Shown piece by piece: positions 19,992 through 64,000 of a stretch of 64,000 bases of DNA. Positions within the stretch are counted from its first letter, which is position 1. The number at the start of each line of letters is the position of its first letter. The position numbers and the translations under genes were made by a program. Source of the stretch: Reyranella sp. (lineage in GTDB: Bacteria > Pseudomonadota > Alphaproteobacteria > Reyranellales > Reyranellaceae); the NCBI RefSeq assembly GCF_030651995.1, contig NZ_JAUSBN010000047.1:62001-126000 (forward strand). Reading direction: 5' to 3'. The notes under the pieces were generated by a model that saw only the letters and a list, made by a program, of their open reading frames with translations, did not search any database and was not told the DNA's origin.

Positions 19992-20102
19992 CCTCATCCT
20001 GAGGAGCGGCCGCGGGCCGCGTCTCGAAGGATGGGCAACGGACGCGGTGCTTGTGCCCATGCTTCGAGACGCGCTCTTGAGGAGCGCTCCTCAGCATGAG
20101 GT
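19992..20102. repeat. Palindromic intergenic repeat, family A, copy 1
   Basis: Arms start 'cctcatcctgaggagc' and end 'gctcctcagcatgagg', with inner 'gtctcgaaggatggg' facing 'cccatgcttcgagac'. It lies between the solute-binding protein gene and the convergent GntR gene. A second copy is at 62274-62385. Together with the next element it fills most of the 294 bp gap at 19962-20255; nothing else is visible there. Confidence 0.85.
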
Positions 20103-58443: not shown

Positions 58444-59070
58444 TCAGCCCCGGTCCAGACGGTCGAGATGGCTGGTGTCGTTGATGAACCCCACCCGCAC
58501 GTTGCCGTCCGCCAGGATCTCCACCTCATTCAATGCGCATGGGTCCTGCGCCAGCTTCCAATACGCCGACAGCGGCTGGTCGAGGAGCTGCAGCAACAGC
58601 GCGCGGTTCACGCTGTCATGGCCGACCAGGACGACCGTTTCGTCGGCGTGCCGCTCCAGGACCATGCGAAGTGCGTTCGAGGTCCGCGCCACCACGTCCT
58701 GCAGCGACTCGCCGCCGGGAAAGCGCACGAGATGCGGCGCCCGTCGCCACAGGCGATAGGCCTCCGGCGACTCCATCTCGATCTCCGCGTGGGTGCGCAT
58801 CTGCCAGGTGCCATAGTCGATGTCGCCCATGCCATCGTGGACCGATGCGGGAATGTTGCCGACTTCTGCAACCCGACCACCGGTGACGACGCAGCGCTGC
58901 AGCGAACTCGTATAGACGGCAACGGGCTTCCAGCGCGCGGCGATGCGGGCGGCCAGCGCATCGGCCTGCGCCAACCCCAGGGCCGTGAGCGGCAGCTCCG
59001 CGCGTCCGCGGAAGCGGGCGGGATGGATCCCGTCGACGTGACCGTGACGGGTCAGCAGGATGCGAGTCAT
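58444..59070 (-). CDS. Histidine phosphatase family protein, 208 aa
   Basis: Catalytic loop '[10 protein letters not shown]' near residue 5, second His in '[14 protein letters not shown]', and '[13 protein letters not shown]' for substrate binding, all of the phosphoglycerate-mutase-like superfamily. It ends 22 bp upstream of mnmG on the same strand. The B12 riboswitch lies just upstream, in the opposite direction, so a CobC-like alpha-ribazole phosphatase role is possible, but nothing in the sequence proves it. Confidence 0.87.
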
Positions 59071-59133
59071 GCCCGAGTGTAGCGTGCGCGCCACACGGCG
59101 CACCCGTGTCGCAGGGCAGCCGATCACGAAATC

Positions 59134-59162
59134 TTGACGGAGGCTGCCGACGTGCCTTAACG
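59134..59162 (+). promoter_or_regulatory. Putative promoter of the cobalamin riboswitch transcript
   Basis: TTGACG at 59134-59139 is followed after 17 bp by TTAACG, a fair -35 and a weak -10. It lies just upstream of the riboswitch. Confidence 0.35.
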
Positions 59163-59164
59163 AT

Positions 59165-59350
59165 CACCCATCGACGGTCCTCCTTAACCGGAGGCTAACA
59201 GGGAATGCCGTGCTGCTCCTTCGGGAGCTAATCGGCAGCTGTACCCGCAGCTGTAAGCGGCGAGCGACTGCCCAAGAGTCACTGGACTTCGGTCTGGGAA
59301 GACGGGCAGGAGCTGCGACCCGCGAGCCAGAAGACCTGCCGGCGATAGCG
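59165..59350 (+). promoter_or_regulatory. Cobalamin (adenosylcobalamin-type) riboswitch
   Basis: Conserved pieces occur in order: 'aacagggaa' (about 59197), 'cagctgtacccgcagctgtaagcg', 'agtcactgg' near 59277, 'tctgggaagacgggcag', and the B12 box 'gagccagaagacctgcc' at 59324-59340. It lies in the leader of btuB, 90 bp before its start, and would repress the B12 uptake operon when cobalamin is plentiful. Confidence 0.93.
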
Positions 59351-59439
59351 TCGCTCTTCCGATGGACGGGACAATCCAACGGGACGGTCAACCGAGCGGT
59401 GACGCGCCTTGTGCGTGTTCTGTCTTGGGAGATCCGTCT

Positions 59440-61368
59440 ATGACGCCGATCCGTCGATTTCTTTTTGTTTTTCCGTTCCTGGCGCCCCTTGCAGCACCCA
59501 TGACGGCGCAGGCGCAGACCGAACCGGACGCCATGATGCCCGCGACGGTCGTGACGGCCGACCGCTTCCCGACCGACCCGAGCAAGGTCACCGCCAGCTA
59601 CACCGTCGTCATGCAGGAAGAGATGCAGCGACGGCAGCTTCGCAATGCCGCCGAAGTGCTGAGGACCATCCCCGGTGTCTCCGTGCAACAGTCCGGCGGC
59701 GTGGGCACACAGACCTCCGTCTTCGTGCGCGGCTCGAATTCCAACCACGTGCTGGTGCTCATCGACGGCGTCAATGTCAGCGATCCGTCCAGCGGCAATG
59801 GCGCGGTCGACTTCGGCAACTTCCTCACCGAGAACCTCGACCGCATCGAAGTCGTGCGCGGCCCGATGTCCACGATGTACGGCAGCCAGGCGATGGGCGG
59901 CGTCATCAACATGGTCACCAAGGCCGGCAAGGGGCCGATGAACGGTGCGGCCTTCACCGAACTCGGCACGCGGCTGACAAGCAACAGCGGCGCCTATGTT
60001 CGCGGTAGCGAAGGACGTTTCAACTACAACCTGAGCGTCGCCGGCACGTTCAGCCCGAACGACACGCCGGTGCCGGCGCGGTTCACGCCGAACGGCGGCT
60101 TCGTCGACATCGATCCCTATCGCAACATCACGCTCGCGGCGCGCCTCGGCTTCGAGATCAACGAGAACACCCAGTTCAACTGGTACGGCCGCTACATCGA
60201 CGCCAAGGTGAACTACGACCAGGTCGGACTGGAAGATCCGAACACCAACACCTACACATCGCAGTTCTACACGCGCGGCGAAATCGAAGGCTCGTATTTC
60301 GACGGCCGCTGGAAGCCCGTCGTCGGCGTCAACTACAGCACCATCACGCGGCACGATCTCGACTATGCCAGCGTGCAGAACCCGTTTCCGTTCAACACCG
60401 ACAGCTGGTTCAACGGTCGACGCCTGCAGGCCGATTTCAAGAACCTGGTTAAGGTCATCGACCAGATCGAGGTCATCGGCGGCATCGATTACGACCGGCA
60501 GTGGGCCTACACCAACACGGTCGGTCCGTTCACGCCCTACACACAGGCCTGGGGCACGATGGCCCAGACCGGCATCTATGGTCAGCTCCGGCTCAACCCG
60601 TTCGAAGGGTTCAACCTCAACGTCGGCGGCCGCGTCGACATGAACGACATGTTCGGCACCGTGGGCACCTGGCGTGCCGGCGCGTCCTACCTGTGGGCGC
60701 CGACGGACACCAAGATCAAGGCGTCGTACGGCACCGCCTTCAAGGCGCCGGCGCTGATCGAGATGTTCGGTCCCGGGCCGTTCTGCGGCGGCAATCCCAA
60801 CCTGCAGCCGGAATACAGCCGCGGCTATGAGGTGGGCGTGGAGCAGGGGATCTTCGACCGCAAGGTGAAGGCCGGCATCACCTACTTCTTCAACACCTAC
60901 TCGAACCTCATCCAGTGCGCGCCGCCGACCTTCGCCCTGATGCAGAACGTCGCCAACGCGCAGACCGAAGGCTTCGAAGTGACGCTGCAGATCAGCCCGG
61001 TGAAGTGGTTCGATCTCTATTTCGACTACACCCACCTGATCGCGCGCAACGTCGATGCCAACCAGCCGCTGCTGCGCCGTCCCGGCGATGTCTTCAACAT
61101 CCGCGCCGAGGTGCGGCCGTGGGAGAACACGCTGTTCGGCGTCGGCGTGCTGCAGGTCAACAGCCGATTCGACGCCAATGCCGTCACCGGGGCGATCATG
61201 ACGCCGGCCCCTTACACGCTGGTGCGAATCACGGCCCAGTACGACGTCATCCCGTCCGTCCAGCTCTTTGCCCGCGCCGAGAACGTTCTGGACCGGGTGT
61301 ACGAGGAGCCGGAAGGCTTCCAGGCGCCGTATTTCCAGGCCTTCTTCGGCGTGAAGGCGAGGTTCTGA
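59440..61368 (+). CDS. btuB: TonB-dependent vitamin B12 outer-membrane receptor, 642 aa
   Basis: Signal peptide (cleavage after AQAQ), then a TonB-box-like 'ATVVTADR', a plug domain ('LRTIPGVSVQQSGGVGTQTSVFVRGSNSNHVLVLIDGV' seen in pieces: SVFVRGSNSNHVLVLIDG, VRGPMSTMYGSQAMGG) and a 22-strand barrel ending '-VKARF' with terminal Phe. The upstream cobalamin riboswitch makes B12 the likely ligand. The nitrilase-like gene follows after 8 bp. Confidence 0.95.
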   Translation: MTPIRRFLFVFPFLAPLAAPMTAQAQTEPDAMMPATVVTADRFPTDPSKVTASYTVVMQEEMQRRQLRNAAEVLRTIPGVSVQQSGGVGTQTSVFVRGSNSNHVLVLIDGVNVSDPSSGNGAVDFGNFLTENLDRIEVVRGPMSTMYGSQAMGGVINMVTKAGKGPMNGAAFTELGTRLTSNSGAYVRGSEGRFNYNLSVAGTFSPNDTPVPARFTPNGGFVDIDPYRNITLAARLGFEINENTQFNWYGRYIDAKVNYDQVGLEDPNTNTYTSQFYTRGEIEGSYFDGRWKPVVGVNYSTITRHDLDYASVQNPFPFNTDSWFNGRRLQADFKNLVKVIDQIEVIGGIDYDRQWAYTNTVGPFTPYTQAWGTMAQTGIYGQLRLNPFEGFNLNVGGRVDMNDMFGTVGTWRAGASYLWAPTDTKIKASYGTAFKAPALIEMFGPGPFCGGNPNLQPEYSRGYEVGVEQGIFDRKVKAGITYFFNTYSNLIQCAPPTFALMQNVANAQTEGFEVTLQISPVKWFDLYFDYTHLIARNVDANQPLLRRPGDVFNIRAEVRPWENTLFGVGVLQVNSRFDANAVTGAIMTPAPYTLVRITAQYDVIPSVQLFARAENVLDRVYEEPEGFQAPYFQAFFGVKARF

Positions 61369-61376
61369 GCGGCACG

Positions 61377-62228
61377 ATGCGTCCTCGCCACCGGCGAAAC
61401 TTGCTGCAAGTCTTCGCCGGTGGCGTAGCTTTCGCTACCGTGACCACAGCCACCGCCACTCCGACGTCAACGATTGCCCTGCTTCATCTCGCGCCCCTGC
61501 CCGGGGAGCTCGCGGCGAACAGGTCCGCCCTCGAGCAGGCCGTGCGCCGGGCCGCGGCGAGCGGCGCCCGGCTGATCGTCACGCCCGAGCTTGCCGTGAG
61601 CGGCTATGGGTTTCGCGACCTCGTGGGCACCGACTGGATCGCGAGCGGGCAATCCGCGCTGTTCACCTGGGCCGGCGCGCTCGCTCTCGAACACAAGGCG
61701 TCCTTGGTGCTCGGCACCCCGGAGGCCGCACCGGAGAACGGTGCCTTATTCAACAGCATGGTGCTGTTCGCCCCGAAGGGCTCGGCAGTGGGCCGGCACC
61801 GCAAGGTGAACGCTTTGCGAATGGGGTCGGAATCCTGGTCGACGCCGGGTGATCGTCCCACGGTGCTGACGGTCGACGGCATCGGCCGGGTCGGCTTCTT
61901 CGTCTGCGCCGACATGTATTCGACCCGTCTCGTCGACGAGACCGCGGTCCAGGGCGTCGACCTGCTTCTGTCCGCCGCCGCCTGGGCACCGGGCCTTCAC
62001 GGCCCCGACGGCGAATGGGAACGCGCGTCCGCGACGACCGGCCGGCCCGTCCTCGTCTGCAATCGCACCGGCCGGGATGTCCTCGATTTCGAGGCGGCCC
62101 GATCGGTCGCCGCCATCGACGGCGCGATCGCCTTCTCCCACGCCTCGCCCGAACCGAGGATCGCGCTGGTCGACTGGACGCCGGGGACACGCCACCTAAC
62201 CAACTGGCGCGTTGCCGCGGCGGCCTAA
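61377..62228 (+). CDS. Carbon-nitrogen hydrolase (nitrilase superfamily), probably exported, 283 aa
   Basis: The nitrilase triad is Glu in 'VTPELAVSGYGF', Lys in 'GRHRKVNALR' and Cys in 'GFFVCADMYST'. The N-terminus 'HRRNLLQVFAGGVAFATVTTATA' resembles a Tat signal (RR followed by a hydrophobic stretch), so the enzyme may act in the periplasm, unusual for the family. It lies between btuB and the btuF-like gene within a riboswitch-led B12 uptake locus. An amidase or deamidase acting on corrinoids or on another ligand is a possibility only. A palindromic repeat follows. Confidence 0.85.
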   Translation: MRPRHRRNLLQVFAGGVAFATVTTATATPTSTIALLHLAPLPGELAANRSALEQAVRRAAASGARLIVTPELAVSGYGFRDLVGTDWIASGQSALFTWAGALALEHKASLVLGTPEAAPENGALFNSMVLFAPKGSAVGRHRKVNALRMGSESWSTPGDRPTVLTVDGIGRVGFFVCADMYSTRLVDETAVQGVDLLLSAAAWAPGLHGPDGEWERASATTGRPVLVCNRTGRDVLDFEAARSVAAIDGAIAFSHASPEPRIALVDWTPGTRHLTNWRVAAAA

Positions 62229-62273
62229 GGCAGTGAGATCATGCAGATTGGATTGAAGACACCCCAACAAAGA

Positions 62274-62385
62274 CCTCATCCTGAGGAGCGCTCCGCAGGA
62301 GCGCGTCTCGAAGGATGGGCGCGAGCACCCCGTCCGTTGCCCATCCTTCGAGACGCCGCGCGACGCGCGGCTCCTCAGGATGAGG
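62274..62385. repeat. Palindromic intergenic repeat, family A, copy 2
   Basis: Arms 'cctcatcctgaggagcgctc' and '...gcggctcctcaggatgagg', with inner 'gtctcgaaggatgggc' facing 'gcccatccttcgagac'. Nearly identical to 19992-20102. It lies inside the B12 uptake locus, between the nitrilase-like and btuF-like genes. Confidence 0.87.
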
Positions 62386-62404
62386 TTGTTGTCGAACTTT
62401 GACG

Positions 62405-63223
62405 ATGGCGCTCCTCCGCAGCTTCGCTAGCTTTGTGCTGCTATTCTTGGCCCTCCCGGCCGCCGCGCAGACCCCGCAGCGGGTGGTCACCCTCAATCTC
62501 TGCCTCGATCAGATGGCCCTGCGTCTTGCCGCGCCCGGACAACTCGTGGGTGTCAGCTACCTCTCGCAGGACCCGCGCCTCTCCGCGCTGGCCGACCAGG
62601 CTGGCGCCCTCGCCCCGGTGCGCGATTCCTTCGAATCGATCCTGACCCTCCGGCCCGACCTCGTGATCCTGGGCCAGGGCTCGCACGCTTCCCTGAAGCG
62701 GCTGCTGCGAGGGGCAGGGGTGCAAATCCTCGAATTGCCGTGGGCGACGTCGATCGGCGAAGCCGAGAGCGTCATCGAGCAGATGGCGACGGCACTGGGC
62801 CGCGAAGAAGTGGGCCGAAGCCTGATCGCCGGCATGCAGGTGGAGCGTCGCCGGCTGACCTGGACAGGCGCTCCCCTCGGCACGGCGGTCTATCTCGAGG
62901 CCAATCGCGGCACGTCGGGGAAGGACAGCCTGATGGACGAACTGCTGCGACTCTCCGGTTACCGCAATCTCGCCGCCGAGCTCGGCATCGGCTCCTTCGG
63001 CCGCCTGTCGCTCGAAACCGTTCTCGCCGGCCAACCCGACCTCGTGGTGTTCGACGGGACCGCCAATGACAACCCGGCCCGGGCCACCGAGTTCGTCGGC
63101 CATCACGCCCTGCTCGCCCTGGCGGGCAAGACGAAGCTCGCGTCGGTGCCGACCCGATTTTCAATCTGCGCCGGCCCGGACAATTTCGAGGTCATGCGAC
63201 GCCTGGCAGAGGCACGGCGATGA
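62405..63223 (+). CDS. btuF: Cobalamin ABC transporter substrate-binding protein, BtuF-like, 272 aa
   Basis: Signal peptide (FLALPAAAQ), then a Class III binding-protein fold with 'RVVTLNLCLDQMALRLAAP' (in part), 'ILTLRPDLVILGQGSHASLKRLL' (in part) and 'LSLETVLAGQPDLVVFDG'. The family binds B12 or iron-siderophores; the upstream riboswitch and btuB favour cobalamin. ATG 62405 is in frame with a TTG at 62399. It overlaps the permease start (ATGA). Confidence 0.82.
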   Translation: MALLRSFASFVLLFLALPAAAQTPQRVVTLNLCLDQMALRLAAPGQLVGVSYLSQDPRLSALADQAGALAPVRDSFESILTLRPDLVILGQGSHASLKRLLRGAGVQILELPWATSIGEAESVIEQMATALGREEVGRSLIAGMQVERRRLTWTGAPLGTAVYLEANRGTSGKDSLMDELLRLSGYRNLAAELGIGSFGRLSLETVLAGQPDLVVFDGTANDNPARATEFVGHHALLALAGKTKLASVPTRFSICAGPDNFEVMRRLAEARR

Positions 63224-64000
63224 ACCGCTGGCTCCTCCTGCTGATCGCGGCGCTCTACCTCCTGTCCCTGGCGGTCGGTCCGGCCTGGTGGCCGTGGCGC
63301 CTCGGCAACGAGGTCGGCTGGGCCATCGTCTGGGAGCTGCGCCTGCCCCGCGCCACCCTCGGCCTGCTGATCGGCGGTGTGCTGGGCCTGAGCGGTGCGG
63401 TGCTGCAGGGCTGGCTGCGCAATCCGCTGGCCGAGCCCGGCGTCATCGGCGTGTCGGCGTGTGCGGGTTTCGCCGCCGTCTGCGCCTTCTACAGCGGCCT
63501 CGCCGCCGCCTTTGCGCTGGCGCTGCCACTGGCGGGCATCGCCGGTGCGGCCGTCGCGGTCGCGCTGCTGATGGGCGCGGTGCGGTCGGGGACGGGAACC
63601 GTATCGCTGCTGCTGATGGGCGTGGCGATCAATGCCATCGCCGCGGCCCTGATCTCCCTGGTCCTGGCCCTGTCCCCGAACCCCTTCGCCTACCAGGAGA
63701 TCTCGCTCTGGCTGGCCGGCTCGATCGTCGACCGCGACCTGCACTACCTCGCGATGGCCGCGCCCTTCATGATTCTGGGCGCAGCCATCGTGCTGGGGGC
63801 CGGCCGCTGGATCGACGCCCTGTCGCTGGGGGAGGACACGGCGCGCAGCCTCGGCGCCGATACGAGATCGCTGGGCCTCAGGCTCACCCTCGGTGTCGGG
63901 CTGATGGTGGGAGCCGCCACATCGGTCGCGGGGGTCATCGGCTTCGTCGGCCTGATCGCGCCTCATCTCGTCCGCGCCAAGGTCGGCTTCCGCCCGGGGG
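63220..64000 (+). CDS. btuC: FecCD-family ABC permease, BtuC-like (partial)
   Basis: Reads MNRWLLLLIAALYLLSLAVG, followed by 'LRLPRATLGLLIGGVLGLSGAVLQGWLRNPLAEPGVIGVS' seen in pieces (RLPRATLGLLIGG, LQGWLRNPLAEPG), the hallmark of FecCD/BtuC permeases. It continues past the right edge, with 'GVIGFVGLIAPHLVRA' still in frame. It would form the inner-membrane channel for the BtuF-like protein; the ATPase is presumably beyond the window. Confidence 0.92.
   Translation, partial: MNRWLLLLIAALYLLSLAVGPAWWPWRLGNEVGWAIVWELRLPRATLGLLIGGVLGLSGAVLQGWLRNPLAEPGVIGVSACAGFAAVCAFYSGLAAAFALALPLAGIAGAAVAVALLMGAVRSGTGTVSLLLMGVAINAIAAALISLVLALSPNPFAYQEISLWLAGSIVDRDLHYLAMAAPFMILGAAIVLGAGRWIDALSLGEDTARSLGADTRSLGLRLTLGVGLMVGAATSVAGVIGFVGLIAPHLVRAKVGFRPG

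Follow-up and report, generated by a model that had tools for sequence, protein, structure and literature searches.

What does a nitrilase-superfamily enzyme do in an operon for vitamin B12 uptake? The question is raised by the end of a stretch of 64,000 nucleotides from Reyranella sp. (contig NZ_JAUSBN010000047.1, positions 62,001 to 126,000; hereafter the window), where a gene for a carbon-nitrogen hydrolase, which we call NIT, stands between btuB-like and btuF-like genes behind a cobalamin riboswitch. We conclude that NIT is very probably a member of the corrinoid-uptake regulon, because its linkage to uptake genes recurs in Reyranella and its copies in a second genus, g292, lie beside riboswitch, TonB-receptor and CbiZ genes. 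Our best reading, to which we give about half of our credence, is that NIT is a dedicated accessory amidase of corrinoid uptake, editing or destroying corrinoids or corrinoid-borne amides.

NIT and the corrinoid-uptake genes

The following features were read in the window:

59158-59357, + strand: cobalamin riboswitch (RF00174), the operon leader; 122.9 bits, gathering score 31.5
59440-61368, + strand: btuB-like TonB-dependent receptor (PF00593/PF07715), read from an ATG start
61377-62228, + strand: NIT, carbon-nitrogen hydrolase of the nitrilase superfamily (PF00795), 283 amino acids, with E71/K143/C177
61377-61463, + strand: NIT leader with RRNLLQ, resembling those of the twin-arginine translocation (Tat) pathway, residues 1-29
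61387-61424, + strand: 17-bp mRNA hairpin over NIT leader codons, in the window clade only, from folding against shuffles
62267-62392, no strand: palindromic repeat element separating NIT from btuF, arms 62267-62289/62370-62392 and 62303-62320/62339-62356
62405-63223, + strand: btuF-like periplasmic binding protein (Peripla_BP_2, PF01497)
63220-64000, + strand: btuC-like permease (PF01032), extending outside the window as far as the position equivalent to 64176

The riboswitch is the only cobalamin riboswitch found in the whole window genome (Reyranella-like, G000). It shares one strand with the BtuB-, BtuF-, BtuC- and BtuD-like genes, the last of these, named by sequence likeness and place, following btuC just beyond the window. 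The best NCBIfam model for the receptor is TonB-B12, at 305.8 bits and below its cut-off of 599.7, and BtuB, BtuF and BtuC (truncated by the window end) all score under the NCBIfam equivalog cut-offs; the predicted corrinoid-transport function of btuB-btuFCD rests on the riboswitch and the gene order. The sequence-only reading of this DNA had described a riboswitch-led B12 uptake locus, begun at 59165 and thus 7 nt inside the riboswitch, with NIT between btuB and the btuF-like gene, and both descriptions hold. A histidine phosphatase gene at 58444-59127 on the - strand, divergent to the riboswitch, gives a sub-threshold match to CobC, the alpha-ribazole phosphatase (118.6 versus 162.9 bits), and the arms of a second copy of the palindromic element lie within the window at 19992 and 20086 (near 19992-20101).

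The same reading had proposed that linkage to B12 genes be sought in other genomes, and such linkage is strong in Reyranella and recurs in g292. We sampled 76 genomes of the order, 65 from the window's genus and 11 others, with E 1e-15 for NIT and E 1e-60 (79% identity or more) for window-type BtuC. NIT was present in 25 of the 65 genus genomes and in none of the 11 others; window-type BtuC was likewise present in 25 of the 65. The two occurred together in 24 genus genomes, NIT alone in one (G048, whose contig breaks inside btuF), BtuC alone in one (G013) and neither in 39, a co-occurrence with a Fisher p of 1.5e-15, kinship ignored. Nine of the 11 genomes outside the genus carry a BtuC at 51-56% identity, without NIT. 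NIT lies 5' of btuF, on the same strand and with no other gene of those searched for in between, in 23 of 25 genomes (loci L049, L055 and L059 read by tblastn), and a cobalamin riboswitch stands upstream of the unit at 21 of the 22 loci with enough upstream sequence, G038, G047 and G070 being cut by contig ends. The exception is G066, where NIT lies behind a tRNA gene, 2.5 kb from btuB.

Rearranged loci separate NIT from its usual neighbours. btuB is missing from the NIT locus, a statement about the locus only, in four genomes (L046, L047, L060 and L061), where the riboswitch is followed by the btuB start region (ATGACGCCGATCCGTCGA in the window) joined in frame to NIT's CGAAACTTGCTGCAAG; the RR leader is kept in all four and TTG replaces ATG in three. 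The NIT gene of G051 is preceded by a different cobalamin riboswitch and then by an AMP-binding ligase gene, which it overlaps by 4 nt; btuB and btuFCD are on a different contig behind their own riboswitch. NIT therefore keeps its place downstream of a B12 sensor even as the genes around it differ. Two further gene families recur in this setting: AMP-binding (acyl-adenylating) enzymes, each behind its own cobalamin riboswitch in four Reyranella genomes (L056:5330-7437, L054:12006-14080, L058:12107-14181 and L070:3196-5271), and DUF6925 proteins, encoded close to the B12 locus either ahead of the riboswitch or beyond btuD (L050:11503-12168, L052:4643-5557, L054:4440-5354, L057:3925-4656, L058:11100-12053 and L071:8125-8778).

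A scan of 385 genomes of the class (E 1e-40) found NIT in three, all of the window's genus, and a scan of 398 genomes of the phylum found it in two, G000 and G618, the latter with two copies. On these counts we reject the idea that NIT is a B12 gene widespread among Alphaproteobacteria. Among 347 genomes of G618's family there are five NIT copies in four genomes, all of one genus, g292, an alphaproteobacterial genus distant from the window's. Each copy has as neighbours a cobalamin riboswitch and genes for a TonB receptor, DUF7676, a small membrane protein and CbiZ (the last confirmed at all five loci, although at L079 the gene finder recovered only its second part), in two different arrangements. 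In four copies NIT immediately precedes the riboswitch and shares its strand. In the remaining one, L078, NIT is convergent and stands at the opposite end beside a Peripla_BP_2 protein, with CbiZ part of a neighbouring unit that has its own riboswitch. On a tree of 36 NIT-family sequences the five g292 sequences group in one clade and the 25 Reyranella sequences in another; as both clades are B12-linked, the link is either old or has arisen twice. The insertion sequences of L078 match Methylocystis plasmids, which suggests that g292 may be a methanotroph. DUF7676 and the membrane protein, of about 185 amino acids, recur behind the TonB receptor in g292 (L068, L069, L078, L079 and L080).

Fold and catalytic residues

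PF00795 (CN_hydrolase) is the sole Pfam family matched by NIT (E 4.5e-23, 82.3 bits, cut-off 23.2), PF01955 (CbiZ) giving no match, and because the best NCBIfam models score far under their cut-offs NIT belongs to no named NCBIfam subfamily. The intact Glu-Lys-Cys triad recognised in the sequence-only reading is present as E71, K143 and C177, invariant across 30 aligned sequences; a second glutamate, E152, is nearly invariant, and the same alignment shows no variation at the fixed positions of W203-x-x-G-x-HGP-x-GEW, a distinctive motif, or of VCNR.

The predicted structure has the alpha-beta-beta-alpha fold (pLDDT, the predicted local distance difference test, 84.5; residues 1-24 below 50). 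Its best structural matches are NAD+-synthetase glutaminase domains and amidases, at a VIA Z of about 26 (26.4 to PH0642, 1j31, and 26.2 to the PH0642 glutaramide complex, 6ypa); cyanide hydratase gives 23.4. N-carbamoylputrescine amidase takes the top Foldseek ranks, with glutaramide-bound PH0642 at rank 9. Because the model matches amidases and glutaminase domains, the chemistry of NIT is probably amide hydrolysis. The window genome encodes a second nitrilase-like protein (L073:6746-8617, contig C66), of 623 amino acids with a Sec-like N-terminus and 27% identical to NIT over the matched part.

The leader and the hairpin

NIT in the window begins with MRPRHRRNLLQVFAGGVAFATVTTATA, which contains RRNLLQ and has a best 12-residue mean hydropathy of 1.89. 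It thus has the N-terminal RR and moderately hydrophobic stretch of a Tat substrate, for which the excerpts of the literature consulted give the consensus S/T-R-R-x-F-L-K. RR-[N/D]-L-L occurs in 17 of the 25 Reyranella orthologs, and 24 residues separate RR from the core in 16 of these 17, with one more in L057 by our own count. L056 (GRRDLLVSAVAGGVLLAMSSVQAQ) and L057 (RRRDLLAGGAAAGVTTFAMSPLQAQ) have classical-looking Tat leaders ending in QAQ, and form one clade, starred on the tree, beside the other 23 Reyranella sequences. Leader-bearing and leaderless states are interspersed on the tree, and the leader has therefore been lost or gained several times. The suggestion of a Tat-exported enzyme survives in part: export is likely in the window's lineage, judged from these sequence features, and it is lineage-specific rather than a general property of the NIT family, since eight of the 25 orthologs lack the leader, as do the 11 relatives read from beyond the genus (in the open frame preceding L068 a single RR is followed by charged residues).

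Alternatively, the leader may go unused, with translation from GTG 61440 giving a cytoplasmic NIT and the conserved upstream DNA serving as an RNA hairpin. The hairpin is strong: its 17 bp begin 10 nt after the NIT start (z -5.53 against shuffles), it stands at the same place in L045, L029, L030, L034, L032, L031, L033 and L035, and silent sites there are near-invariant too. Against synonymous recoding, z runs from -1.57 to -3.08 in the nine window-clade rows, weakest in L031 and L044. Covariation lends the hairpin no support, as 99.3% of cells are paired with no double change and shuffles do as well. All 13 rows from the window group and the R. aquatilis group keep the GTG, and three orthologs (L031, L033 and L035) have no ATG, GTG or TTG before the RR, leaving CTG or a start after it. 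The excess of third-position differences is also weaker in the leader (113/96/132 at the three codon positions for five representatives; 84/30/79 in the window clade) than in the core (72/66/122), in part because the hairpin overlaps the leader in the nine window-clade rows. However, seven other leader-bearing rows (L057 was not scored) show no hairpin excess against synonymous recoding and still keep RR-[N/D]-L-L, so that the leader does not owe its presence to the hairpin; the ordinary-looking leaders of L056 and L057, and the in-frame joining of the btuB start to RRNLLQ at the btuB-less loci, also argue for its use. We consider an unused leader unlikely. In the window clade the hairpin may explain the conserved silent sites, and it may also determine how much NIT is expressed relative to btuB.

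Possible roles of NIT

The window genome, 99.5% complete, has matches for CobU and CobS and none for CbiC, CbiB or CbiZ (no PF01955), a gene content that suggests a corrinoid scavenger probably able to finish cobinamide. CbiC is missing from 12 of the 25 NIT genomes versus 6 of the 40 other genus members (p 0.009, kinship ignored), and CbiB has no match in 9 of the 25, the window genome included, versus 5 of the 40, some of these genomes being incomplete. CbiZ occurs in 11 of the 76 genomes of the order and 10 of the 11 also carry NIT, which rules out NIT as a replacement for CbiZ.

We infer the regulation, export, activity, substrate and benefit of NIT as follows. From its position behind the cobalamin riboswitch with btuB and btuFCD, NIT would be produced under corrinoid shortage. 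In the window's lineage it would probably fold in the cytoplasm and be exported by Tat to the periplasm, meeting corrinoids between BtuB and BtuF; in leaderless sister lineages it would act after BtuCD. Its likeliest task would be to hydrolyse an amide on incoming corrinoids or on cargo carried with them, either clearing unusable or inhibitory variants or releasing a usable form. We hold a narrower version to be doubtful: that NIT is a periplasmic nitrilase-superfamily amidase editing or destroying particular corrinoids before import, independently of CbiZ and CbiR, and so a new kind of cobamide-processing enzyme.

Several observations weigh against an accessory amidase that acts on corrinoids during uptake. 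Hydrolysing a primary amide would normally damage a cobamide. Besides the three orthologs with no standard start before the RR, the leader is absent from L048, L050, L051, L053, L054, L055, L058 and L059. Four of the g292 copies of NIT precede the riboswitch instead of following it, and the fifth is convergent. G013 keeps riboswitch, btuB, btuF, btuC and btuD with NIT missing, and NIT is thus dispensable. Six relatives from neither genus, L039-L043 and L074, have no recognisable B12 neighbours in translations or annotation (read, not all scanned) and no riboswitch in the searched stretches near them, and L039-L043 share NIT's invariant motifs (L074 was not aligned).

These last points bear most on the main rival, in which NIT is a passenger, a housekeeping amidase that acts on some common small metabolite, whose gene the operon has picked up and whose reaction is unrelated to corrinoids. 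It would account for G013, and for the solitary members of the family in Nitrospiraceae, Desulfuromonadales and Bacillaceae, which lack a leader and have no B12 genes recognisable nearby; the five of them that were aligned share the invariant residues. It sits poorly with linkage in two genera with different arrangements, with NIT behind a riboswitch where btuB is missing and behind a second riboswitch in G051, and with the near-perfect co-occurrence of NIT and BtuC; we regard a passenger as somewhat unlikely, though worth keeping in view. Co-occurrence with BtuC also argues against a further reading, in which NIT is not an uptake accessory but a stand-in, repressed through the riboswitch, that replaces a B12-dependent reaction in the way that MetE replaces MetH. 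To our knowledge there is no B12-dependent reaction that an amidase could replace, and although NIT shares its riboswitch with an AMP-binding ligase in G051, and cobalamin riboswitches also control such isozymes according to the available text of one survey (PMC3766115), we judge a stand-in very improbable.

The remaining alternative is closest to the sequence-only suggestion that NIT might trim corrinoids: like CbiZ, it would cut the nucleotide-loop amide of foreign cobamides to give cobyric acid, to be rebuilt with a preferred lower ligand. CbiZ is itself a C-N amidohydrolase, the g292 copies of NIT lie near cbiZ, and the setting of NIT resembles that of some cbiZ genes, which lie beside transport genes in the part of PMC7733943 consulted. 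Rebuilding needs CbiB, however, which has no match in the window genome or in 9 of the 25 NIT genomes overall; without it the cobyric acid from a CbiZ-like cut would serve no purpose, and such a route is unlikely in the window genome. Trimming therefore fits poorly, and with CbiZ and NIT coexisting in 10 of the 11 CbiZ genomes of the order and in g292, we think an analogue of CbiZ quite improbable. An uptake accessory is favoured over a remodelling step that requires CbiB because the window genome and eight more NIT genomes have no CbiB match, and because CbiZ and NIT coexist.

If NIT is such an accessory, an amidase of unrelated fold in an uptake operon, exported in some lineages, would be a new step in bacterial selection among B12-like molecules, and periplasmic editing would let a scavenger of corrinoids be selective or protect itself from corrinoid-like antagonists. 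Even with a non-corrinoid substrate the gene would mark cobalamin-riboswitch control of amide chemistry. A cultured species, Reyranella aquatilis KCTC 52223 (L037), is at hand for testing.

Titles and abstract openings, in a search with most subscription journals outside its scope, yielded no description of a nitrilase in B12 uptake, and the main text of a study describing the content classes of cobalamin-riboswitch regulons, as far as it was available, names no nitrilase or amidase (PMC3766115). NIT has the same fold and catalytic Glu, Lys and Cys as the nitrilase-superfamily amidases (PH0642, Nit2, NitN and the NAD+-synthetase glutaminase domain), from which it differs in its identity of about 20%, its own motif W-x-x-G-x-HGP-x-GEW with VCNR, its leader in some members and its B12 operon. 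CbiZ (adenosylcobinamide amidohydrolase, PF01955) is, like NIT, an amidohydrolase near B12 uptake genes and riboswitches, but the Pfam match of NIT is to CN_hydrolase only, and NIT occurs alongside CbiZ and in genomes without a CbiB match. The accessible part of PMC7733943 treats CbiZ and CbiR as remodelling enzymes, with 25% of cbiR genes beside transport genes, and places the remodelling by CbiZ, CbiR and CobS at the nucleotide loop. CbiR, a cobamide phosphodiesterase, thus offers a precedent for the accessory corrinoid processing proposed for NIT, but is of the AP-endonuclease-2 superfamily and cuts a different bond. DUF71-B12 proteins, whose role in B12 salvage was likewise predicted from clustering, with btuCDF (PMC3541065, in the portion available), belong, unlike NIT, to the PP-loop ATPase family and have a different fold.

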